DNA of 64,000 bases from Pseudomonas syringae CC1557. Its GTDB lineage: Bacteria > Pseudomonadota > Gammaproteobacteria > Pseudomonadales > Pseudomonadaceae. The DNA lies in assembly GCF_000452705.1 (NCBI RefSeq), contig NZ_CP007014.1:3597501-3661500 (forward strand). Direction: 5' to 3'. Numbering within the stretch: the stretch's first letter is position 1; the number at the start of each line of letters is the position of its first letter. The position numbers were made by a program, and so were the translations under genes. Positions 3,034-25,010 of this stretch are shown piece after piece. The notes below the pieces were generated by a model. It was not told the origin of the DNA. It did no database searches and saw nothing but the letters and a program-made list of their open reading frames with translations.

Positions 3034-4227
3034 TCATCGAGCCTGAGCAACCGCCCAGAACGATGGCTGGGCAAGACAGTCCCGAACAGACTGGGCGGCA
3101 TGCTCTATATCCTGATCTCGCGTGAAGCGCCCAAGGCTCAGGCGAATGGTCTGACCCGCCTCCTGCGGGCTGAGTCCCAGAGCCAGGAGGACATGGGATG
3201 GTGCGTTTTTCGCCGAATTGCAGGCCGAGGTGGACGAAAACGCAAGCCTGTCGCCCAACGCCTTCACATCCAGATCACTGTTACCAAACGTGAGGCTGAG
3301 TATGTTGGCAATCCGCTGCGCGGGACTGCCGTTGATACACAATCCGGGGATATCAGCGAGGCGTTCGCATAAAAGCCGGTTCAGCCGTTTTGTTTCAAGA
3401 ATCTCCTCGTCAAGCGCATCGGCAGCCAGCGCAAAGGCTGCGCCCATTCCAGCAATCTGGTGCGTCGCCAGCGTGCCCGAACGCAGGCCGCATTCGTGCC
3501 CGCCGCCATGTATCTGAGCCAGCACACGTTGTTGAGCACGCGGCCCGACGTACAGAGCACCGATCCCCTTGGGCCCGTAGATCTTGTGTGCCGAGAACGA
3601 CATCAGGTCTACCGCAAGCTGGCTCACGTCGATCGGCAACTTGCCAGCACCCTGCGCTGCATCCACATGCAACAGCGCGCCGTGTTCACGTACCCGCTTA
3701 CCGGTCTCGACGATGTCGTTGACCGTGCCCAATTCGTTGTTGACCAACATCAATGAAACCAGAAATGTATCGTCACGCAATGCAGCACTGACAGCATCGG
3801 GGCTGATCAGACCTTCGCTGTCCGGGGCAAGCCAGGTGACGTCGATACCCTCCTCTTGCAATTGACGGGCAGTATCAAGTGTTGCCTTGTGCTCGATCTG
3901 GCTGGTGATGATATGACCGGTTACGCGTCCACCGCCTGCCGCAAGGCGCCTTGCGCGTTCGTGAGCCACGCCCTTGATTGCCAGATTGCTGGATTCGGTA
4001 GCGCCTGAGGTCCAGATAATCTGCGTAGCCTGCGCACCGACCAGGTTCGCAACCTGCTGGCGAGCCTGCTCTACCGCCAGGCGGGCTCTTTGTCCGAACG
4101 AATGAGAACTGGAAGCAGGGTTGCCGAAGTTGCCCGACATGCCCAGGCAATCAACCATCACCTTGATGACTCGCTCGTCCACCGGCGTGGTGGCCGCATA
4201 ATCAAAGTACAGCGCTGACTCTTTCAT
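3034..4227 (-). CDS. Cysteine desulfurase (class V PLP enzyme, IscS/NifS-like)
   Basis: A 397-residue PLP-dependent enzyme that converts L-cysteine to alanine plus enzyme-bound persulfide. The N-terminus YFDYAATTPVD is the family signature. The PLP lysine is in SFSAHKIYGPKGIG, and the His of the IHGGGHECGLRSGT block is present. The catalytic cysteine lies in STSACNSAKNAPSHVL, which differs somewhat from the IscS SACTSAS loop. There is no iscR, iscU or hscA nearby, so this is probably a second, dedicated sulfur donor rather than the housekeeping IscS. Start at 4227 is supported by AGAGGAAAT just upstream; the alternative start 21 bases earlier lacks this. The M24 peptidase gene follows after 57 bp. 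Confidence 0.9.
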   Translation of the reverse strand: MKESALYFDYAATTPVDERVIKVMVDCLGMSGNFGNPASSSHSFGQRARLAVEQARQQVANLVGAQATQIIWTSGATESSNLAIKGVAHERARRLAAGGGRVTGHIITSQIEHKATLDTARQLQEEGIDVTWLAPDSEGLISPDAVSAALRDDTFLVSLMLVNNELGTVNDIVETGKRVREHGALLHVDAAQGAGKLPIDVSQLAVDLMSFSAHKIYGPKGIGALYVGPRAQQRVLAQIHGGGHECGLRSGTLATHQIAGMGAAFALAADALDEEILETKRLNRLLCERLADIPGLCINGSPAQRIANILSLTFGNSDLDVKALGDRLAFSSTSACNSAKNAPSHVLLALGLSPQEAGQTIRLSLGRFTRDQDIEHAAQSVRDCLAQPSFWAVAQAR

Positions 4228-14014: not shown

Positions 14015-16201
14015 TCAGAAATCGATGGTGCCCGACAGTTTCAAAGTGCGTGGCTCACCCTGAGTCAGGTAGCCGCCATTGGCTGATGCCCAGTAGTCCT
14101 TGTTCATCAGGTTCTCGACGTTGGCACGCAGGGTGACGTCCTTCTGCGCAACGTTGAAGGTGTACCGTGCGCCCAGATCGAAGCGGTTCCAGGTCGGAAT
14201 GCTCAACTCGTTGGCGGCGTCGACGTACTGCCCACCTGTACGCAGCATGCGCGCGCTGACCGCAGCGCCCGCGATGCCAGGCACGTCCCAATCGGCACCT
14301 GCGTTGAACTGGAAGGTCGGCACGCCGATGGCCCGGTTGCCGTCGTTGCTGCCGCCCGAGGTGCCGCTCACCTCGGTGTCCATCAGGGTCAAACCGGCCA
14401 GCAGGCGCAGGCCGCTGACAGGCTCGCCAAAGACGTTCATCTCCACGCCACGGTTACGCTGCTGACCATCGCGGACATAACGAGAATCGGTGCCTTCCAG
14501 CACCTGGTAGCCGTCAGCCGGTTGCTCGATGCGGTACACGCCCAGGCTCGCGCCAAACGTGCCCATGTCCAGCTTCACGCCCGCCTCTAGCTGCTTTGAA
14601 CGCGATGGAGGGAAAACCTCACCGGGGTTGACAGTCACTGTATCGGGAGCCGTCGGCCCTTGCGCCAGACCTTCGATGCGGTTGGCGTAGAACGACACAT
14701 GCTGCCAAGGCTTGAACACCACCCCATAGACCGGCGTCGTGATCGCCTCGTCATACAGGGCATTGCGCGGGCCACTGCCGTATTGATAACCCTGCACACG
14801 CAATTGCTGACGACGCAGGCCTGCGGTCAACAGCAGTCGATCATCGAAGAAACCCAGCGTGTCGGAAAACGCGACACTGCGCATACGGCTCTTGCCAACG
14901 ATGCCGGGGTCATTCAGGTCGCCTGCGGTGAAACTGTCGAGTGCCGGACGCTCCTGCGAAACAGGGTCGTAAAGGTTGTTGCTGGAGGTGCCGCCGAAGA
15001 GATACGCACTGCGCTGCTCGGTCCAGATCCCGGACAGCCCGAAGTTGACCTTGTGGCTGACCGCGCCAGTCTGCAACTTGCCATTGATACCGGCCATGGC
15101 CGTCTTGTTGTCTTCGCCGTGCGGGATGAAAGACGGTGCGGCCGTGGTGTTACCTGCGGCATCGTGGACGGTCGGCGAGCCATAAACGCCCACCTCGCGC
15201 GTGTGCTTCGCGCCCACTGCGGCATACAGCGTCCAGTCTTCGTTGAGGTCGTACTCGGCACGGCTCATGCCGAAGGTGTCTTCGGTTTCGGTCCAGGTCC
15301 AGTTCGGGGCGTAATTGGTATCCGAGTCCGGAGCGTGCGGCACGCTGGTCAGGGCGCTGTCGACAAACACCGTGTTGCGGCTCTGATTGATACGTTGTTT
15401 CTGGTAAGCGAAGTCGCCGGAGATGCGGAAGTTATCACCCCGATAATCAAGCCCCAGGGCGAACAGCTTGCTGCGATGCTCTTCGTCCTCGACCCCGGTT
15501 TCGCCTTCGCGCTGAGACAGGTTCAGCCGTGCGCCGAAACGGTTGTCTTCGCCGAAACGCTGACCGAGGTCCAGGTGCTCGCCGACCCGGCCGTCGCTGC
15601 TGATGTCGGTGCTGAAACGACGCGTCGGTGTGTCCTGGGCACGCTTGGGCTGCAGGTTGACGCCACCGCCGATGCCCGAGCCGGTTGGCGTTACGCCGTT
15701 GATGAACGCATTTGGCCCTTTGAACACCTCAACCCGTTCCAGCGCGTCGGTGGATATGAGCTGACGTGGCAGTACGCCGTACAGGCCGTTGTAGGAAATA
15801 TCATCGGTGGTCAGTTTGAAGCCGCGAATCACGAATACTTTCGAGGCGTTGGCATAACCGGATGACTGGCGCACCGATGAATCATTGAACAGTACATCGC
15901 CGACGTCTTCGGCCTGCTGATCTTCGATCAGTTGCTCGGTGTAGCTGGTCATGGTGAACGGCACGTCCATGATGTCGGCATTCCCCAGAACGCCGAGCTG
16001 TCCGCCACGTGCCACTTGCCCGCCTGCATAGACGGGTGGAAGGGCATGCGGGTCGGCCTTGTCGGCACTGATATCGGTCTCTCCCAGCACCATCGGGCCG
16101 TCCTGCTGGCTGGCAGCAGCGGTAGCGGCCCAGGCCGGAGAACCAATGGAACAGCAAAACGCGAGCAACGTGAGGCGCATCGGAAACGATGGGGTGTGCA
16201 T
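14015..16201 (-). CDS. TonB-dependent ferric-siderophore receptor
   Basis: A 728-residue outer-membrane receptor. A signal peptide covers about residues 1-25 (RLTLLAFCCSIGSPAWA-AT). The plug domain (about 75-185) includes VPFTMTSYTEQLIEDQQA and LERVEVFKGPNAFINGVTPTGSGIGG. The 22-strand barrel ends in LSGTIDF with the terminal Phe needed for BAM insertion. Overall pattern fits the FhuA/FcuA-type hydroxamate siderophore receptors, and no N-terminal secretin/TonB signalling domain is visible. There is no siderophore biosynthesis or ABC uptake gene nearby, so it likely takes up a siderophore made elsewhere or by other microbes. Start at 16201 follows AGGATCTC. A Fur-like site lies 95 bp upstream. 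Confidence 0.9.
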   Translation of the reverse strand: MHTPSFPMRLTLLAFCCSIGSPAWAATAAASQQDGPMVLGETDISADKADPHALPPVYAGGQVARGGQLGVLGNADIMDVPFTMTSYTEQLIEDQQAEDVGDVLFNDSSVRQSSGYANASKVFVIRGFKLTTDDISYNGLYGVLPRQLISTDALERVEVFKGPNAFINGVTPTGSGIGGGVNLQPKRAQDTPTRRFSTDISSDGRVGEHLDLGQRFGEDNRFGARLNLSQREGETGVEDEEHRSKLFALGLDYRGDNFRISGDFAYQKQRINQSRNTVFVDSALTSVPHAPDSDTNYAPNWTWTETEDTFGMSRAEYDLNEDWTLYAAVGAKHTREVGVYGSPTVHDAAGNTTAAPSFIPHGEDNKTAMAGINGKLQTGAVSHKVNFGLSGIWTEQRSAYLFGGTSSNNLYDPVSQERPALDSFTAGDLNDPGIVGKSRMRSVAFSDTLGFFDDRLLLTAGLRRQQLRVQGYQYGSGPRNALYDEAITTPVYGVVFKPWQHVSFYANRIEGLAQGPTAPDTVTVNPGEVFPPSRSKQLEAGVKLDMGTFGASLGVYRIEQPADGYQVLEGTDSRYVRDGQQRNRGVEMNVFGEPVSGLRLLAGLTLMDTEVSGTSGGSNDGNRAIGVPTFQFNAGADWDVPGIAGAAVSARMLRTGGQYVDAANELSIPTWNRFDLGARYTFNVAQKDVTLRANVENLMNKDYWASANGGYLTQGEPRTLKLSGTIDF

Positions 16202-16312: not shown

Positions 16313-16437
16313 TTTTCTGCGAGATGTTACAGCGTGGAACTTGCGACTATTCTCGCTCCCACGCTTTTACGGCCATAAGCCTGAGAACCCGATTTTTCGG
16401 GCTCTTCAAGACTTGTGTATAACGATGAGTGCTTTGC

Positions 16438-16790
16438 GTGGCGATGCATTTCGTGACGTTCCGCGTCACAGAGTTCTGCGATATCAGGGAGATTCAGGTT
16501 CGACTCAGGTCACCTTTTCGCCCCTCGGCGACTCACTTTGAAAGGGCCAAAGTGAGCAAAGCCCCTGGCTCCGTTTCCGGCCCGACTTCGTCGGGTTCCT
16601 TCGTCCTGCCCCTGATCCGGGGGTCGCCGCAACGGGCCATCCATGGCCCGGTGCGGCTAACTCGGCGTCCTTGCCGAGTTACCCCCGGATCAGGGTCAGG
16701 ACTCAGCCGTCACTTACGTCGCAATCGGTGTCGTCAGGGCTATCGCGATCGAAAAAGCAAATCTAAAGCACATCTAAAGCGCATCTAGAG
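16438..16790. repeat. Long structured intergenic repeat, copy A (uninterrupted)
   Basis: About 350 bp that recurs at 24498-25010. It contains a set of inverted repeats: CTCACTTTG/CAAAGTGAG (16532-16556), CCCGAC-TTC-GTCGGG (16581-16595), an outer 15-bp pair CCCTGATCCGGGGGT (16610-16624) with its complement (16681-16695), and inside that pair two hairpins, CGGGCCAT-CC-ATGGCCCG (16633-16650) and AACTCGGC/GCCGAGTT (16659-16680). The outer pair plus two inner hairpins make a three-way junction. Differences from copy B preserve base pairing. Confidence 0.85.
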
Positions 16791-17007
16791 CAGTGGCTTC
16801 AGGCGAAACATGACGTTTTGACGTGACGGGGATTTGGGAGGCGGAACGTCGTGCACTGCCTGTCGATGCACAGTGGCATGGGGGTTGAGCATTTGTTTGG
16901 CGCGATAAGCACCCACCCGGCAATGCTTTGAAACAGGTCGGCGACAGCCACCTGCCCCCTACTCTCGTGTAAGCTCACACGCTATTGGTTTTCCCATCGA
17001 GAGGCCT

Positions 17008-18351
17008 ATGCAGTCCACTTTCCGACGCTCGACCCTGGCAGCGCTTCGCGGTTTTGCCTTGCCGAGTGATGCTATCTCCATTGTTTCTTCCGCGGCCGAT
17101 TATCGGCGCTGTCTGCTGGAGAAGATTGCTTCGGCCACGCGCCGTATTTACATCACTGCGTTGTACCTGCAACAGGATGAGGCAGGCCAGGAGGTGCTCG
17201 ATGCCCTGTATGCCGCCAAAGCAGCTCGGCCAGAGCTGGATGTGGCGGTGCTGGTGGACTGGTTTCGTGCGCAGCGGGGCCTGATCGGGGCCGGACGGCA
17301 GCCGGGCAATTCGACCTGGTATCAGGCGCAAAACCTCGAATATGACGAAGAAGTGCCGATCTATGGTGTGCCCGTGCAGACCCGCGAGCTGTTCGGCGTA
17401 TTGCACCTCAAGGGCAGCGTGGTCGATGACTGCGTGCTTTACACTGGCGCGAGCATCAACAATGTCTATCTGCACAAACTCGATAAGTACCGCCTAGACC
17501 GTTATCACCTGATCGAAAGCGCACCGCTGGCCGACTCGTTTGTGAATCTGGTGCAGCAGGAAATTCTGCCGTCGCCAGCAGTGCATCGTCTGGACCTGCA
17601 ATCGCCACCGAGTTCGCGCAGCCTGCGTAGCGAGATTCGCGCGTTTCGCGGTGATCTGAAGCGCGCTGCCTATGACACCTCGGTGGGCGACAAGGAAAAC
17701 GGCGCGTTGCGAGTGATCCCGTTGCTGGGCGTCGGCCCACGCAACAAGCTCAATCGCGTTATCTGCGACCTGATCGCTTCCAGCAAGATTCAACTGACCA
17801 TCTGCACGCCGTATTTCAACCTGCCAGTGGCCGTGACTCGCGAGATCAACAGGGCACTGAAGCGTGGGGTACAGGTCGACATCATCATTGGCGACAAAAC
17901 CGCCAACGACTTTTTCATCGACCCGGACGAGCCGTTCAAGGTGATCTCGGCCCTGCCCTATCTGTATGAGATCAGCCTGCGACGCTTTGCGCAAAAACAC
18001 CAAAAGGCGATCGCCCAGCAGCGCCTGAACGTGCATTTGTGGAAGCACGGCGATAACACCTTCCACCTCAAGGGTATCTGGGCTGATCAGCGCTATACCT
18101 TGCTGACCGGCAACAACCTGAACCCGCGCGCGTTCAATCTTGACCTGGAAAACGGTCTGCTAGTCGATGACCCGCAGGGCCAGTGGACTGATCCCCGCGA
18201 GGCAGAGATCGCGCATTTGATGCGCAACACCCAGCGCGTCAACCAGTACGATGAACTCGACACTCTGGCCAACTATCCCGAAGGCGTGCGCAAGTTCCTG
18301 CGCAGGGTCAGTCGGGTCAGGGTCGAACGCCTGCTGTACCGGATTCTATAG
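17008..18351 (+). CDS. pssA: CDP-diacylglycerol-serine O-phosphatidyltransferase PssA
   Basis: A 447-residue enzyme of the phospholipase D superfamily that joins CDP-diacylglycerol and serine to give phosphatidylserine, the precursor of phosphatidylethanolamine. Two HKD motifs are present: HLKGSVVDD (about residue 132) and HLKGIWADQRYTLLTGNNLN (about residue 352). Length is close to E. coli PssA (451). There is no signal peptide or transmembrane segment, consistent with a peripheral, ribosome- or membrane-associated enzyme. The ATG at 17008 follows GAGAGGCCT. It stands alone; the converging ligD gene follows. Confidence 0.92.
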   Translation: MQSTFRRSTLAALRGFALPSDAISIVSSAADYRRCLLEKIASATRRIYITALYLQQDEAGQEVLDALYAAKAARPELDVAVLVDWFRAQRGLIGAGRQPGNSTWYQAQNLEYDEEVPIYGVPVQTRELFGVLHLKGSVVDDCVLYTGASINNVYLHKLDKYRLDRYHLIESAPLADSFVNLVQQEILPSPAVHRLDLQSPPSSRSLRSEIRAFRGDLKRAAYDTSVGDKENGALRVIPLLGVGPRNKLNRVICDLIASSKIQLTICTPYFNLPVAVTREINRALKRGVQVDIIIGDKTANDFFIDPDEPFKVISALPYLYEISLRRFAQKHQKAIAQQRLNVHLWKHGDNTFHLKGIWADQRYTLLTGNNLNPRAFNLDLENGLLVDDPQGQWTDPREAEIAHLMRNTQRVNQYDELDTLANYPEGVRKFLRRVSRVRVERLLYRIL

Positions 18352-18360
18352 GCGTTCACT

Positions 18361-18403
18361 TCAGCGGGTGCCCAGCTCTTCTTCAGACCTGAGCGCCCGC
18401 TGA
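18361..18403. terminator. Hairpin between converging pssA and ligD
   Basis: TCAGCGGGTGC pairs with GCGCCCGCTGA (one wobble) across a loop of about 21 bases, lying between the pssA and ligD stops. There is no clear T tract, so termination is inferred from position and stem strength. Confidence 0.45.
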
Positions 18404-18426
18404 CGGCACTGTTCACCAACCCGCCC

Positions 18427-21018
18427 TCAAGGCTGTTTGGCACCCAACTGCTTCCACATCTTTTGCGTGATTTTTCGGCGGTTGCTGTAGCCCGCCCAAG
18501 GGTCATCCTTGAGCGTGCTTAAACGCTGCTCAAGCGTGGTGATGTCCCACTGCGCCGACGACGTCAGACCCGCCAGCTCATCCAGTGCAATCGGCACCGA
18601 GACCGGTAAACCCGGCCGGGCGCGTACCGAATAGGCGGTGACTGTACTGCCGCCGCGACTGTTGCGCAGGTAATCGACAAAGATCTTCCCGACCCGGTTT
18701 TTCGGCCCCATGGTGGCCGTAAAGCGCTCGGGCAGTTGCCGACTGACAAACTCGGCAATCGCCTTGGAAAACGCCTTGACGGTGTCCCAGTCGGCCTGCC
18801 GCGCCAACGGCACGATGATGTGCATGCCCTTGCCGCCACTGGTCTTCAGAAAAGCTTCCAGGCCCAGCTCATCAAGCACGGCAAGTACCATCTGGGTGGC
18901 CTCGATCATGCTCCGCCAAGGCAGCGCCGGGTCCGGATCGAGGTCGAGTACCAGGTGATCAGGCGTCTCGATTTTGTCGCGGGTCGCGCCCCAGGTATGC
19001 AATTCGATGGCACCCATTTGCGTCGCACCGACCAGCGCCTGCACCGAGTCGATTTCCATCAGCGCGGCATGACCGGGGTCCAGTGCGCGATCAAGCTGCT
19101 TGATATTTGGAATGGCCAGATGCTCGGCGTGCTTCTGGAAAAACTGCTCGCCATCGATGCCTTCAGGACAGCGCAAGAGTGCCACCGGACGCTTGTTCAG
19201 ATAAGGCAGAATCCATTCGGCAATGGACGCGTAAAACTGCGCGAGTTCAATCTTCTGCGTACCGGTCTTGCTGTCGATGACCCGATCCGGATGGCTGATG
19301 CCAGTTCCTGATACGTCGACTTTGCCCTGAGCGGTTTTTTTACCCGTTTTGGGAGCGGCTGAAGCGACCTTGGTTTTGCTGACAGCCTTCGCCGGCTGGG
19401 CCTGTTCATGCACCACATCGCTTGCAGGCTTGTCAGTGCGCAAGCCGACGAATGCGGCCTGACGCAGAATACCCTCGCGGGTCCACTGGGCAAACTCTGC
19501 TTCGCAGACCAGCTGTGGCTCCAACCATTGCACACCTCGCGCCTGCGCTGCGCTCAGTTTTTTTGCCAGCGGCGAGGTCTCGCGCTGCAACGGCTGTAAC
19601 TGTTTGTGCAATTGCTTGAGTGTCGCTTCGTTGAAGCCAGTGCCGACCCGCCCGGCGTACACCAGGCCTTGCTTGGCGTCATTGACCGCCAGCAACAACG
19701 CGCCGAACGCCGAGCGGCTGCCCTGCGGCGCGGTATAGCCGACGATCACAAACTCCTGACGCAAACGGCATTTGAGCTTGATCCAGTCGGGATTGCGCTT
19801 GCTCACATAGGCGCTGCCGGCACGTTTGCCGATCACCCCTTCGAGGCCCATTGCAGCGGCGCTGGCAACAATGTCCTGATGCCCGGCCTGAAACGCATCG
19901 GAGTAGCGCAGCACGCGGCTGCGCTGGCTGCCGAGCACCTGTTTCAAGGCGTCACGACGCTGTTCCAGTGGCACTTCGCGCAAATCTTCGCCACTCAGAA
20001 ACGGCATGTCGAACAGGTAATACAGGATGTTCTTGCTTTGCCCCTCATCAAAGGCATTCTGCAGGCCCTGAAAGTCGGGCAACCCTTGTTCGTCGAGCAC
20101 CACCACTTCGCCGTCGAACCAGCTGTCCTGCAACTTCAAGCCTTTAAGGGCCTTGACCAGTTCAGGCAGTTGATCGGTCCAGTCATTGCCGTTACGGGTG
20201 AACAGACGCACTTCGTCATCCTGGATGCGCGTGAGCATGCGGTAGCCGTCGAACTTGATCTCGTACAGCCACTCACCTGCGGGCGGGGCATCCACCAGCG
20301 TTGCCAGTTGTGGCGACAACGCATCCGGGATCGCTGTTTTGGCTCTTTTCGGCTCGGCTTTTGATGCTGCAACTTTTGGCGTTGCAGCCTTGGCCTTACT
20401 GGTTGCATTGCCGGGCTTGGGCTTGGGCTTGGCAGACGCTGCACGCCCGGCCCCGACATGCGCGCCGCTGATCACGCTTTGTGGTTGTTCCTGGGTGATG
20501 TCGTACTCGTCGGCGGGTCGGGCAATCGAGTCCTTTTCCTTGATCAGCAGCCATTGTTCCTTACTGCCGCTGCCTTTGAGCCGCGTGCGTACCAGCGCCC
20601 ACTCGCCGCTGAGCTTCTCGCCGACCAGCGTGAACTTGAGCTTGCCTTCCTCGTAAGTCTTTTGCGGATCGCCATGGGGCTGCCAGATGCCCCGATCCCA
20701 GACAATTACGTCGCCTCCGCCGTATTGCCCTTGCGGAATGCTGCCCTCGAAACCGGCGTAATCCAGCGGATGATCCTCGACATGCACCGCCAGACGCTTT
20801 TGCTTCGGGTCCAGGCTTGGACCTTTAGGAACCGCCCAGCTCTTGAGCGTGCCATCCAGTTCCAGGCGGAAGTCGTAGTGCAGATTACGCGCATCGTGTT
20901 TTTGAATCACAAAGCTCAGCGCGCTGGACCGCGCCTTGCCTTTGCGTTTGCTCTCGGCAGGCTCTGAGGTGACATTAAAATTGCGCTTGCGTGTGTATTC
21001 ACTGGCTGGCTTGGCCAT
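18427..21018 (-). CDS. ligD: Multifunctional DNA ligase D for non-homologous end joining
   Basis: An 863-residue enzyme with three modules in the Pseudomonas order: 3'-phosphoesterase (about 1-190, with HDARNLHYDFRLELDG and GSIPQGQYGGGDV), ATP-dependent ligase (about 230-550, adenylated Lys in YEIKFDGYRML near residue 255), and polymerase/primase (about 585-850, metal-binding LVLDLDPDPALPW, plus TSGGKGMHIIVPL). The linker at 190-235 is rich in Lys, Ala and Pro. It repairs double-strand breaks together with Ku, encoded immediately upstream with only 36 bp between them. The start follows AAGGATAAAG-like and GGAG sequences in that gap. No defects seen in the motifs. Confidence 0.95.
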   Translation of the reverse strand: MAKPASEYTRKRNFNVTSEPAESKRKGKARSSALSFVIQKHDARNLHYDFRLELDGTLKSWAVPKGPSLDPKQKRLAVHVEDHPLDYAGFEGSIPQGQYGGGDVIVWDRGIWQPHGDPQKTYEEGKLKFTLVGEKLSGEWALVRTRLKGSGSKEQWLLIKEKDSIARPADEYDITQEQPQSVISGAHVGAGRAASAKPKPKPGNATSKAKAATPKVAASKAEPKRAKTAIPDALSPQLATLVDAPPAGEWLYEIKFDGYRMLTRIQDDEVRLFTRNGNDWTDQLPELVKALKGLKLQDSWFDGEVVVLDEQGLPDFQGLQNAFDEGQSKNILYYLFDMPFLSGEDLREVPLEQRRDALKQVLGSQRSRVLRYSDAFQAGHQDIVASAAAMGLEGVIGKRAGSAYVSKRNPDWIKLKCRLRQEFVIVGYTAPQGSRSAFGALLLAVNDAKQGLVYAGRVGTGFNEATLKQLHKQLQPLQRETSPLAKKLSAAQARGVQWLEPQLVCEAEFAQWTREGILRQAAFVGLRTDKPASDVVHEQAQPAKAVSKTKVASAAPKTGKKTAQGKVDVSGTGISHPDRVIDSKTGTQKIELAQFYASIAEWILPYLNKRPVALLRCPEGIDGEQFFQKHAEHLAIPNIKQLDRALDPGHAALMEIDSVQALVGATQMGAIELHTWGATRDKIETPDHLVLDLDPDPALPWRSMIEATQMVLAVLDELGLEAFLKTSGGKGMHIIVPLARQADWDTVKAFSKAIAEFVSRQLPERFTATMGPKNRVGKIFVDYLRNSRGGSTVTAYSVRARPGLPVSVPIALDELAGLTSSAQWDITTLEQRLSTLKDDPWAGYSNRRKITQKMWKQLGAKQP

Positions 21019-21054
21019 GGCCGGTTTCTCCAGAAGGATAAAGGGGCTTTTGGC

Positions 21055-21966
21055 TCAAGACGCTTTGCCGGTTTTCTTGCGCGGGGCGGGCCGCTTGGGT
21101 TTGCTCTCGTCCTTGGCCGCAGTCTTGCCAGCAGCTTTGCCAGCGGGTTTACTCGCCCTTGCCTTGCCAGCGCCGCCCTTGCCCGCCAGGCTGCGGCGCA
21201 GCAGATCGGTGAGGTCGATGACATCGGCACTTTTGCGTTCTTCCTCTCCCGGATCGGTCTCGACATCTTCGATCTTGCCTTCGCTGGCCTTGGTTGCGAC
21301 CAGTTTCATGATCTTCTCCTGGAAGGTATCGCGGTATTTTTCCGGCTCCCAGTCTGCGCTCATGTCCTTGACCAGCCGCTTGGCCATGTCGCGCTCGCTC
21401 TTGTTCAACTGCGCATCAGTCACTGCTTCACTCAGCTCCAGCGCATCGAGCTCGCGCACGTCGGCGGGCCAGCGCAGGATCACCATCACCAGCGCCGATT
21501 CCAGCGGCATGACCGCCGCCAGGTGCTCACGGGTGTGCAGCACAACGTTGGCCAACGCGACCTTTTTGGTTTCCATCAGGGTTTCGCGTAACAGCGCGTA
21601 GACTTTTTCACCACGCTTGTCAGGGGTCAGAAAATAAGGCGTGTCGATGTTCTGCAAGGGAATCTGCTGACTGTCGACGAAGGCGAATATGTCGATGGTC
21701 TGCGTCGACTTGGGGTGCGAAGAGCGTATTTCCTCTTCGCTGAGCACCACATAACGATCTTTCTCGTGCAGTACACCCTTGACGATATTTTCCTTGGTAA
21801 CTTCCTTGCCGGTGACCTTATTGATCCGCTTATAGCCGACCGGGTCCATGCTGCGTTTGTCGAGCCAGTCGAAATCCACGCTGTTCGACGTCGTCGCAGA
21901 CACCAGCGCGACGGGAATATGCACCAGTCCAAAGCTGATCGCGCCTTTCCAGATTGCCCTTGCCAT
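21055..21966 (-). CDS. ku: Ku protein for non-homologous end joining
   Basis: A 303-residue bacterial Ku, which forms a homodimeric ring on DNA ends and recruits LigD. The Ku core runs from MARAIWKGAISFGLVHIPV to about residue 255, with the family blocks DPVGYKRINKVTGKEV and YFLTPDKRGEKVYALLRE. The C-terminal tail is a long Lys/Ala/Pro-rich extension (from about 250), as in pseudomonad Ku proteins, and likely aids DNA binding. The ATG at 21966 is preceded by AGGAGTCAGACC. It is the first gene of the Ku-ligD operon; msuD is divergent with about 290 bp between starts. Confidence 0.95.
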   Translation of the reverse strand: MARAIWKGAISFGLVHIPVALVSATTSNSVDFDWLDKRSMDPVGYKRINKVTGKEVTKENIVKGVLHEKDRYVVLSEEEIRSSHPKSTQTIDIFAFVDSQQIPLQNIDTPYFLTPDKRGEKVYALLRETLMETKKVALANVVLHTREHLAAVMPLESALVMVILRWPADVRELDALELSEAVTDAQLNKSERDMAKRLVKDMSADWEPEKYRDTFQEKIMKLVATKASEGKIEDVETDPGEEERKSADVIDLTDLLRRSLAGKGGAGKARASKPAGKAAGKTAAKDESKPKRPAPRKKTGKAS

Positions 21967-22104
21967 GGTCTGACTCCTGTTGATCGTGAACAGGTGACCG
22001 GACAGGCCCGAGAAAAGTTTCGGCAGCCTGACGAGCGCTGCCAAACGCTTGCACCAGAAGGCTCTACACGCAATTACCGAGTGCCAGCCAAGCTGACATA
22101 TTCC

Positions 22105-22135
22105 TTAACGATCTAAAAATATGGTTTAACGATCT
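22105..22135. promoter_or_regulatory. Two direct repeats TTAACGATCT upstream of msuD
   Basis: TTAACGATCT occurs at 22105-22114 and again at 22126-22135, 21 bp apart, or two helical turns, so both lie on the same face of the helix. They are 50-80 bp upstream of the -24/-12 promoter at 22186, a suitable place for binding sites of the sigma54 activator SfnR. The repeat is not found upstream of ssuE. Confidence 0.5.
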
Positions 22136-22185
22136 TTTGCGGAATAAATCAGACGTTCTATAAATGGCCCCACCTCGAACGCTGT

Positions 22186-22201
22186 TGGCAGACTGTCTGC
22201 A
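22186..22201 (+). promoter_or_regulatory. Sigma54 (-24/-12) promoter of msuD-sfnR
   Basis: TGGCAGACTGTCTGCA has GG (22187-22188) and GC (22199-22200) exactly 12 bases apart. It resembles the ssuE promoter (TGGCA, ACT, TGC in the same places). The predicted transcript start near 22212 leaves a leader of about 46 bases. The promoter core is flanked by CTGTTGG and CCAACAG, a 7-bp inverted repeat. Confidence 0.6.
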
Positions 22202-22257
22202 CTCCAACAGTAGGTCCCGTCAGCTCTGACCGAGCTGATCACTCCCAAGGATTTGTC

Positions 22258-23397
22258 ATGAACGTTTTCTGGTTTCTTCCGACTCACGGCGACGGCCACT
22301 ATCTGGGCACCACCAAGGGCGCGCGCCCGGTCACCCTGAATTACCTGAAGCAGGTGGCGCAGGCTGCCGACGATCTGGGCTACTACGGGGTGCTGATTCC
22401 TACGGGCCGCTCCTGTGAAGACTCATGGGTGATCGCTTCGGCACTGGTGCCGCTGACCGAGCGTTTGAAGTATCTGGTAGCGATCCGTCCGGGGATCATC
22501 TCGCCAACTGTTTCGGCGCGTATGGCCGCCACGCTGGATCGTTTGTCGGGTGGCCGCCTGCTGATCAACGTGGTGACCGGTGGCGATCCGGACGAAAACC
22601 GGGGTGACGGCAGCTTTCTTGATCACAGCGAGCGCTATGAAGTCACCGACGAGTTCCTGCAGATCTGGCGTCGCGTATTGCAAGGCGAAGCAGTCGACTT
22701 CGAAGGCAAGCACTTGCGCGTAAAAAACGCCAAGGCGCTGTACCCGCCGATCCAGAAACCTTACCCGCCGCTGTATTTCGGCGGTTCTTCGGATGCAGCA
22801 CATGATCTGGCCGCTGACCAGGTGGATGTCTACCTGACCTGGGGCGAGCCGCCAGCAGCCGTCGCGCAGAAGCTGGCCGATGTGCGGGAACGTGCAGCAC
22901 GCAAGGGCCGTACCGTGAAGTTCGGCATTCGTTTGCATGTGATCGTCCGGGAAACCAGCGAAGAAGCCTGGAAAGCCGCCAGCACGCTGATCGAGCACAT
23001 CAGCGACGAAACCATTCAGGCGGCGCAGAAGTCCTTCTCGCGCTTTGACTCGGAAGGCCAGCGACGCATGGCGGCACTGCACGACGGGCGCCGCGACAAT
23101 CTGGAAATCGCCCCTAATCTGTGGGCGGGTGTGGGCCTGGTTCGTGGCGGCGCGGGCACAGCGTTGGTCGGCAACCCGCAGGAAGTGGCGGAACGCATCA
23201 AGGAATACGCGAACCTGGGCATCGAAAGCTTCATCTTTTCCGGCTACCCGCACCTCGAAGAAGCCTACCGTTTCGCCGAACTGGTGTTCCCGCTGCTGCC
23301 TGAGCCTTACGCCAGCCTGGCCGGGCGTGGCATCACTAATCTGACGGGGCCGTTTGGCGAAATGATCGCCAACGATCTGCCCCCGCAGGCCAAGTGA
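22258..23397 (+). CDS. msuD: FMNH2-dependent alkanesulfonate monooxygenase (MsuD/SsuD)
   Basis: A 379-residue bacterial-luciferase-like enzyme that uses FMNH2 and oxygen to split alkanesulfonates (methanesulfonate and longer) into aldehyde and sulfite. Sequence matches the SsuD/MsuD family almost throughout: [14 protein letters not shown] at the start, [60 protein letters not shown] and [19 protein letters not shown]. It needs an FMN reductase; the nearest is ssuE at 4666. No reductase gene is in this operon. It overlaps sfnR by one to four bases, so the pair is translationally coupled. A sigma54-type promoter lies upstream. Confidence 0.9.
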
Positions 23398-24503
23398 TGT
23401 CAGGGCAACTGCTGACCTTACCGCACTCGCCTGCGCTGGCGACCTCGATCAGGGCCACTGCGCAGGTGTTCGAAGACCCGAAGTCGAGGGCCCTGCTCGC
23501 CCACGTACGCCAGGTTGCACCAAGCGATGCCAGCGTGCTGATTATTGGTGAGACCGGCACCGGCAAGGAGCTGGTCGCAAGGCATGTCCATGAGCTGAGC
23601 GCCCGGCGTGACAAGCCGTTTGTGGCCGTTAACTGCGGGGCCTTTTCCGAGAACCTGATCGAAGCCGAGCTGTTCGGCCACGACAAAGGGGCTTTTACCG
23701 GCGCAATCAGCGCCAAGGCCGGCTGGTTTGAAGAGGCCAACGGCGGCACGCTGTTTCTTGACGAGATTGGCGACTTGCCCATGACCCTTCAGGTCAAGCT
23801 GCTGCGTGTGCTTCAGGAACGCGAAGTGGTGCGGCTGGGCTCGCGCAAAAGCATTCCGATTGATGTGCGCGTGCTGGCGGCCACCAATGTACAACTGGAA
23901 AAGGCCATCAACGCAGGACATTTTCGCGAGGATCTGTATTACCGGCTGGACGTGGTCAACCTGGAATTGAGCCCGTTGCGCGAGCGGCCCGGCGATATTC
24001 TGCCGCTGGCCCGACACTTCATCGAGGTCTACAGCCAGCGCCTGCGGCATGGCCCGGTACGGATAAGTCCCGAGGCCGAACACAAGCTCAAGACCTACAG
24101 CTGGCCGGGTAACATTCGTGAGCTGGAAAACGTTATTCATCACACCTTGCTGGTCTGCCGTGACGGCATCATCCAGCGTGATGATCTGCGCATGTCCAAC
24201 CTCAGAATCGAGCGTCAGGACGAATACAGCCAAGCTGACGAATCCGCCGAGCAGTTGCTCAATCGCGCGTTCCAGAAGCTGTTCGAGGAACAGGCAGGCG
24301 CCTTGCACGAGAAGGTCGAGGACACGCTGCTGCGAACGGCCTATCGCTTCTGCCATCACAACCAGGTGCACACCGCCAGTTTGCTGGGCCTGACGCGGAA
24401 CGTGACGCGCACGCGTCTGATCAAGATCGGTGAACTGGCGGTCAACAAGCGCAGGCCGGGTGAGAATGTGCAGGGTGACCGGATGCTGCATGTGTCGGTG
24501 TGA
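23397..24503 (+). CDS. sfnR: Sigma54-dependent activator SfnR
   Basis: An enhancer-binding protein of 368 residues (369 if the GTG at 23394 is used) that activates sulfur-scavenging genes with RNA polymerase-sigma54. The AAA+ domain (about 25-260) shows Walker A GETGTGKE, the sigma54 contact motif GAFTGA, Walker [14 protein letters not shown] and the sensor [11 protein letters not shown] region. A C-terminal helix-turn-helix (about 315-350, [23 protein letters not shown]) binds DNA. There is no N-terminal receiver or ligand domain, as in P. putida SfnR, so activity is probably set by its level. The start overlaps the msuD stop (TGATG). Confidence 0.9.
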
Positions 24504-25010
24504 GCGTGGGAATGCAGTTCTTAACGCTCAGCGTCACACAGAGGTTTTGCGAGGTCGGTTAGATATGTTTTCGACTCAAGGCACCTTTTCGCCCCTCGGC
24601 GACCTACTTTGATGGGGCCAAAGTAGGCAAACCCCCAGGCTCCGTTTCCGGCCCGACTTCGTCGGGTTCCTTCGCCCTGTCACTGATCCGGGGGTCGCCG
24701 CAACGGGCCATCCATGGCCCAGACTGTGTAAAAACGATTTTCGGCGAGATAGGCATCTAAAAACGACCTGAAAATCGCGTCCCTGCGCAAAATCTGTATC
24801 TGCTCACATACCGACAAATTTCAGATTTAACGTAGAAGCGCGCACTTCAGTTTTGGCACAGCGTTTTTACGCAGTCTGGGCCCGGTGCGGCTTGCTCGGC
24901 GTCCTGCCGAGCATCCCCCGGATCAGTGTCAGGGCTCAGCCGTCACTTACGTCGCAATCGGCGTCGTCAGTGCCATCGTGGTTGAAAAGCACATCTAAAG
25001 CTAAAGCATT
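24498..25010. repeat. Long structured intergenic repeat, copy B (interrupted by a MITE-like insertion)
   Basis: Second copy of the element at 16438-16790. Helices: CCTACTTTG/CAAAGTAGG (24603-24627), CCCGAC-TTC-GTCGGG (24652-24666), outer pair CACTGATCCGGGGG (24681-24694) with its complement (24915-24928) and GCTCGGC/GCCGAGC (24894-24912). Where copy A has the continuous CGGGCCAT-CC-ATGGCCCG hairpin, copy B is split by a 159-bp insertion at ATGGCC. Confidence 0.85.

Follow-up and report, generated by a model that had tools for sequence, protein, structure and literature searches.

A dispersed Pseudomonas repeat with a covarying fold and two conserved GGA loops, a candidate mobile carrier of RsmA-binding RNA hairpins

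The window analyzed here is a stretch of 64,000 nucleotides from Pseudomonas syringae CC1557 (contig NZ_CP007014.1, positions 3,597,501 to 3,661,500), and it contains two copies, A and B, of a long intergenic repeat. On the minus strand, the informative strand of both copies, its fold consists of a long outer stem that encloses two hairpins, after which come a short hairpin, the hairpin H3 and the small hairpin H4. Its stems covary, the GGA motifs in the loops of the two enclosed hairpins are conserved, its copies are dispersed and paired, H4 is a target of insertion sequences (IS), and the RNA family that the repeat matches shares a clan with RsmZ. The reading preferred here, held tentatively and with a confidence just short of half, is that of a mobile palindromic repeat containing an RNA module that binds RsmA; read-through would turn it into a small distributed sink or tag.

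Both copies lie where a preliminary description of this DNA had placed them (16438-16790 and 24498-25010). The limits given there take in, on one side, a palindrome at 16453-16469, presumably of the repetitive extragenic palindromic (REP) type; the repeat proper extends over about 16503-16756 in copy A and 24573-24990 in copy B. The copies differ by 27 substitutions in 267 aligned bases, leaving aside a 159-base insert in copy B. All five of the pairing-preserving substitutions named in that description were found: the CTCACTTTG/CCTACTTTG stem has two of them, the CTCGGC stem another two and the outer stem one. A sixth both-sided change is located at the bottom of the outer stem. The insert, the minus strand, the RNA family, the GGA loops, the paired palindromes and the IS target had gone unmentioned. 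In a two-sequence fold of 88 pairs, 80 pairs were unchanged between the copies, 6 were changed on both sides and 2 on one side with pairing kept, and none was broken. Random placement of the 14 substituted paired columns gave a mean of 0.52 both-sided pairs and never reached 6 in 20,000 trials. This fold was derived from A and B themselves and is biased to them; the larger alignments are independent of it.

Selection for a folded RNA, or for a hairpin DNA, had been proposed from the two copies, the suggested check being to build a covariance model and test for covariation. Covariation across larger alignments of copies supports the proposal, and the outcome is clearly positive. Both-sided changes that keep pairing occurred in 24 of 41 pairs when 38 copies, 37 of them distinct, were aligned by sequence alone, with 240 both-sided cells compared to 20 to 33 when the partner was slid by 1 to 3 columns; 92% of the cells pair. 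Mapped on a tree of the 38 rows, 54 double changes fell on the same branch, whereas 2,000 re-pairings averaged 11.9 and never exceeded 23. A model-aligned set of 85 copies, an alignment fitted to the structure, gave 30 of 36 pairs and 520 cells (32 to 79 in controls). Removal of two short rows left 83, in which same-branch changes numbered 100 (null mean 12.5, maximum 37, 5,000 re-pairings). Both tree nulls are simple parsimony re-pairings, not R-scape.

Imperfect pairs distinguish the two strands, because G-U and A-C counts swap when the opposite strand is read. On the minus-strand reading, G-U cells outnumbered A-C cells by 67 to 8 in the 38 copies, 34 to 1 in H3 and H4 and 123 to 6 in the 83 rows. 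The H3 and H4 cells of 36 copies comprised 500 Watson-Crick, 34 G-U, 1 A-C and 4 other combinations; such cell counts score related sequences repeatedly, and 22 of the 34 G-U cells come from one pair. The minus strand thus tolerates wobble, which favors one strand as the folded one, most simply as RNA, although G-T pairs are tolerable in single-stranded DNA too. As an argument against a fold in DNA only, the strand bias is not absolute, since one-strand reading is known for some DNA transposases.

The minus strand of copy A matches the Rfam family TwoAYGGAY (RF01731) above the cut-off (E value, 4.5e-07; scores in Table 1), whereas copy B, whose second hairpin is split by the insert, has no RF01731 match. 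RF01731, of Rfam type Cis-reg, and RsmZ belong to one Rfam clan, CL00106; both the family and its grouping with RsmZ were already known. The genome has an RsmZ gene at C1:4173959-4174091 and four matches to the CsrA domain PF02599. GGA is intact in 82 of the 83 rows in each of the two loops. Across these rows, the columns of loop 1 changed 0 (A), 9 (N), 0 (G), 1 (G), 0 (A) and 8 (Y) times and those of loop 2 changed 0 (A), 10 (N), 1 (G), 0 (G), 0 (A) and 2 (U) times, compared with a stem-column mean of 5.4. A-N-GGA is present in loop 2 of 82 rows and in loop 1 of 60, and a single row lacks GGA in loop 1. Both loops of copy A are of the A-N-GGA form; loop 2, AUGGAU, is strictly AYGGAY, but loop 1, AAGGAC, is not. 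CsrA/RsmA sites show this pattern of a fixed A, GG and A with a free N, and the N reportedly corresponds to the base that the protein does not read in the RsmE-hcnA structure. The RsmA-type consensus, RUACARGGAUGU, is placed in hairpin loops in a study of Pseudomonas putida (PMC7937890).

The repeat is present in many copies and many genomes. A blast search of the CC1557 genome with copy A returned 58 matches, 20 of them of at least 250 bases and all on the large contig, and a covariance model, for which 38 Pseudomonas copies served as input, matched 27 times. Of 119 Pseudomonas genomes, 73 had RF01731 matches (63 above the cut-off), as had 18 of 274 genomes from a sample of the whole class; CC1557 is in both sets. 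None of 14 control genomes had a match. The covariance model found between 1 and 76 copies in 24 of 30 genomes from the same Pseudomonas sample, several best scores being weak, and up to 133 copies in 11 of 12 chosen genomes, a nonrandom set (9 taken for ISPpu8-family copies, 2 for many matches and CC1557 itself). Spread by plasmid or phage was considered and rejected: at blastn sensitivity, in a search that covered the copy A subtype, this subtype was not seen on plasmids, and the element gave partial matches to one "plasmid," a 4.9-Mb Aeromonas record, and to one phage record.

Mobile elements of the ISPpu8 family use the repeat as a landing site. ISPpu8 is tabulated as an IS4-family element of 1419 bp with 18-bp ends and an 11-bp target duplication (PMC3056050, Table 2). 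A scan of Pseudomonas for IS4-family transposases, with the covariance model tried beside 30, led to one subgroup (4 loci), whose transposase shares 89% identity with a P. putida protein named "ISPpu8 family transposase" (P0009). The repeat adjoined the IS in 18 of 19 subgroup loci (none at L133), with five strong scores, and the junction between the two lies in H4. All 16 IS copies with both exact 18-bp ends were 1417 to 1421 bp long and had identical 11-bp duplications, GCCGTAAGGGC or variants. In a wider set of 30 loci that overlaps these copies, the end pair was found in 30, identical duplications in 25 and a model match in 21; 33 named loci, many ending at contig edges, had a model match in 11. 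This site-specific insertion of the ISPpu8 family into the H4 hairpin (seen at loci among L120 to L138 and L172 to L201) is therefore common but not universal. The possibility that the repeat is itself a miniature inverted-repeat transposable element (MITE) of ISPpu8 was rejected, because the IS ends lie inside H4 and not at the borders of the repeat. The genomes G084 and G111 carry a third subtype with a weak model match. In G518, whose transposase is the closest to P0009 (96%), the repeat next to the IS shares the outer parts, H3 and H4; it has three hairpins whose three-base loops vary in the middle base, and 53 copies of this putida-like subtype were typed from 60 matches.

Copies of the repeat also occur as inverted pairs in the company of other palindromes. 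Among the matches listed, 47 of 50 neighbors within 1.5 kb were divergent (minus then plus), 3 were tandem and none was convergent (drawn from 255 typed copies, with the best 150 per list), and in G518 all 25 near neighbors were divergent; convergent pairs were seen elsewhere at L054 and at L183, the latter with an IS in between. All 12 inter-pair spacers examined contained motifs that we take to be REP-like, in both orientations and of more than one type, although these motifs were chosen post hoc from the same spacers without a background control. In CC1557, 17 of 20 copies have a REP-type palindrome on their 3' side. By company only, the palindromes suggest how the repeat spreads. The main rival reading, quite plausible if somewhat less than probable, is that of a passive mobile DNA palindrome, whose hairpins would persist because a transposase (a RAYT working on REP palindromes, for example) or replication depends on the folded single-stranded form, and whose GGA motifs would be read in DNA or inherited from a founder. 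The divergent pairing, the REP-like spacers and the adjoining palindromes would all fit such an origin, as would a putida-like subtype that spreads without GGA hairpins. It accounts less well for G-U cells far above A-C cells on one strand only, and for a GGA that is nearly invariant in both loops while the stems and the preceding base change. GGA loops recur, moreover, in RF01731 matches from other gammaproteobacterial families, in a search that selects for them.

In the preferred reading, that of a mobile repeat with an RsmA-binding module, we infer transcription, RsmA binding, titration and the mode of spread. Transcription from a neighboring gene would run through the repeat in the right direction, and the minus-strand RNA would then fold so that the long outer stem holds the two GGA-loop hairpins. 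A dimeric RsmA/CsrA protein could clamp both loops. The likely effect would be that each read-through transcript adds a little to the pool of RsmA sequestered by RsmX, RsmY and RsmZ; alternatively, the repeat might tag the transcript that carries it. A bolder version, rather unlikely at present, would make the repeats a genome-wide RsmA sponge. In that case, divergent arms would supply one sense copy from read-through on either side, overall read-through and not GacA alone would set free RsmA, the dose would differ between lineages with copy number, and the copies would serve as landing sites for the ISPpu8 family.

Several observations weigh against a role in RsmA binding. Loop 1 lacks the N in 22 of the 83 rows (AGGAC or AGGAU, the type of copy B) and is then not A-N-GGA. 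Counts of ANGGA showed no excess over dinucleotide shuffles in copy A (4 against 2.0; P = 0.14) or copy B (3 against 1.9; P = 0.28), so the RsmA argument rests on loop conservation and placement and not on the number of motifs. Copies between same-direction genes showed no preference of the RNA strand (12 with, 8 against). CsrA was found in all 119 Pseudomonas genomes, compared with 73 for RF01731, and the presence of the two therefore cannot be correlated. Thirteen of the 18 IS-side repeats match the model weakly (27 to 43 bits). In 20 aligned G518 copies (L240 to L259), three-base loops replace the GGA hairpins, and the model finds no match in that genome; fold and spread thus do not need the GGA loops. 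The last point also bears on the P. putida KT2440 pull-down study, which lists, among targets of RsmA, RsmE and RsmI, intergenic RNAs beside ISPpu8 or at its putative sites, among them a "long palindromic region" (PMC7937890). A divergent inverted pair of repeats is such a region, and the ISPpu8 flanks held in common had already been remarked on there. The two GGA hairpins are absent from the putida-like subtype, which the pull-down may concern; the pull-down therefore gives indirect support, and binding in KT2440 could involve GGA motifs elsewhere in that subtype. This weakens the ISPpu8 link as proof that RsmA binds the GGA loops.

Gene context bears on whether the repeat acts only where it sits. 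Genes in CC1557 were called with a home-made codon-usage gene finder, and 24 of 25 copies lay outside predicted genes (L023 overlaps a predicted frame). Of these 25 copies, some of which sit in one common gap, 12 were flanked by convergent genes and 12 by same-direction genes (7 with and 5 against the RNA); the only copy between divergent genes is copy A, which lies upstream of, and on the same strand as, a TonB-receptor gene (14015-16201). None of 22 copies in other genomes was inside a gene, and their flanks were convergent in 12 cases, same-direction in 8 (5 with, 3 against) and divergent in 2; a further 7 were excluded as too close to an edge. A local cis element, through which RsmA on 3' or 5' untranslated RNA would alter stability, termination or translation of the neighboring gene alone, is improbable. 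The convergent flanks would put the RNA into 3' ends, the Rfam type is Cis-reg, and copy A precedes the receptor gene in the sense direction; yet the copies between same-direction genes have no orientation bias, as counted above, and the convergent excess is modest, because 4 of 11 gene pairs in the window with gaps of >250 bp are convergent (10 of 52 over all pairs). No promoter conservation upstream of the CC1557 copies was seen by eye, a comparison that did not include a search for the GacA box. That the repeat encodes a protein is barely credible. A plus-strand open frame of 119 codons does run through copy A (16429-16788), but it has no Pfam match, the one-base difference between the AGGAC and AAGGAC loops of hairpin 1 shifts the frame, and changes track pairing; the coding reading was rejected on the absence of a Pfam match and the loop differences.

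The repeat resembles several known systems. It shares with TwoAYGGAY an outer stem that holds two hairpins whose loops are of the AYGGAY type; it differs as a high-copy dispersed repeat that includes H3 and H4, keeps REP-like company and pairs in inverted orientation. TwoAYGGAY is tabulated for the human gut, Gammaproteobacteria and Clostridiales in Weinberg 2010 (PMC2864571), and PMC4333381 predicts CsrA binding for it in Clostridia. RsmX, RsmY, RsmZ, CsrB and CsrC likewise present GGA in hairpin loops, and RsmZ is in the same clan. These RNAs come from single genes with their own promoters (PMC7937890), whereas the repeat is multicopy with no conserved promoter visible by eye. REPINs and REP palindromes (PMC3116915) are also intergenic, multicopy and arranged in inverted pairs. 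In the present case, the arms are about 250 bp or more with a covarying multihelix fold, and the REP-like pair is separate, between or beside them; a REPIN, whose whole unit is two short inverted REP palindromes, was rejected because the arms are too long and the REP-like motifs lie outside them. The repeat was thought from the outset to be a known type of dispersed Pseudomonas repeat, and this is likely. It is similar in size to R200 of P. fluorescens, given as about 320 bp, intergenic and in 47 copies in SBW25 in Silby 2009 (PMC2718517), a likeness by description and not by comparison of sequences. Such repeats have probably been counted previously as intergenic repeats. ISPpu8 resembles the IS found here in length, ends and duplications; it lands in the repeat and is not the repeat.

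Among open-license PMC papers, covered mostly as listings, none was found that joins TwoAYGGAY, dispersed Pseudomonas repeats and RsmA, and a search with the printed loop sequences gave none on this repeat among the 20 of 21 papers listed, judged by title. Papers on the P. chlororaphis phz leader, the rsm genes of 1448A and RsmQ do not, in the text available, concern it. Nor did the same searches turn up an assignment of such repeats to TwoAYGGAY, a description of their divergent pairs with REP-like motifs in between, a test at the level of the loops or H4 as an ISPpu8-family target.

Csr/Rsm systems govern lifestyle switches in Gammaproteobacteria, and in Pseudomonas a handful of GacA-driven small RNAs are believed to set the balance. 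If the RsmA-binding reading is true, tens of copies with such hairpins would be an unseen, lineage-variable term in that balance, and repeat load would be tied to regulation. TwoAYGGAY, whose function is unproven, gains a tractable home in laboratory strains that are easy to handle, and the RNAs beside ISPpu8 in the P. putida pull-down gain a possible explanation.

Table 1. Positions of the repeat and its parts in the window (position 1 is the first nucleotide of the 64,000).
Feature	Positions	Strand	Remarks
Copy A of the repeat	16503..16756	- (RNA strand)	Ends approximate, from alignment of copies in the same genome
Rfam TwoAYGGAY (RF01731) match, copy A	16596..16709	-	58.4 bits; gathering cut-off 43
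Hairpin 1, copy A	16658..16681	-	Loop 16667-16672, AAGGAC on RNA strand
Hairpin 2, copy A	16626..16657	-	Loop 16639-16644, AUGGAU on RNA strand
Outer stem, 5' arm of RNA, copy A	16682..16701	-	
Outer stem, 3' arm of RNA, copy A	16604..16623	-	
Hairpin H3, copy A (CTCACTTTG...CAAAGTGAG on plus strand)	16532..16556	-	Varies genus-wide with pairing kept
Hairpin H4, copy A	16519..16530	-	Counterpart GCCGTAAGGGC is ISPpu8-family target in other genomes
Palindrome, presumably REP type, adjoining copy A at 3' side of RNA	16453..16469	none	
Copy B, 3' part of RNA: H4, H3 (24603-24627), outer 3' arm, half of hairpin 2	24573..24719	-	End approximate
MITE-like 159-bp insert in hairpin 2 of copy B	24720..24878	none	GGCC duplication at 24716-24719 and 24879-24882
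Copy B, 5' part of RNA: other half of hairpin 2, hairpin 1, outer 5' arm	24879..24990	-	End approximate
Hairpin 1, copy B	24893-24913	-	Loop AGGAC on RNA strand; the copy A loop has one base more

The insert of copy B interrupts the stem of the second hairpin, has inverted ends (CAGACTG...CAGTCTG; CAGACTGTGTAAAAACG and CGTTTTTACGCAGTCTG) and is flanked by a 4-base target duplication, GGCC. Relatives of it were found in 11 plasmid records from Pseudomonas, Rahnella, Erwinia, Klebsiella and Kosakonia, three of them with at least 80% coverage. The CC1557 genome also has two clusters of four head-to-tail copies of the repeat each, some partial (G000:C1:1561065-1562399 and 4070440-4071451), where other species have divergent pairs. 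Many RF01731 copies per genome, including some divergent pairs (in G387 and G276), were observed in other gammaproteobacterial families, and three loci from such families (L061, L064 and L065) have a loop 2 without GGA. One ISPpu8-bearing repeat, at L127, is flanked by two cobalamin riboswitches (L127:506-716 and 3364-3585).

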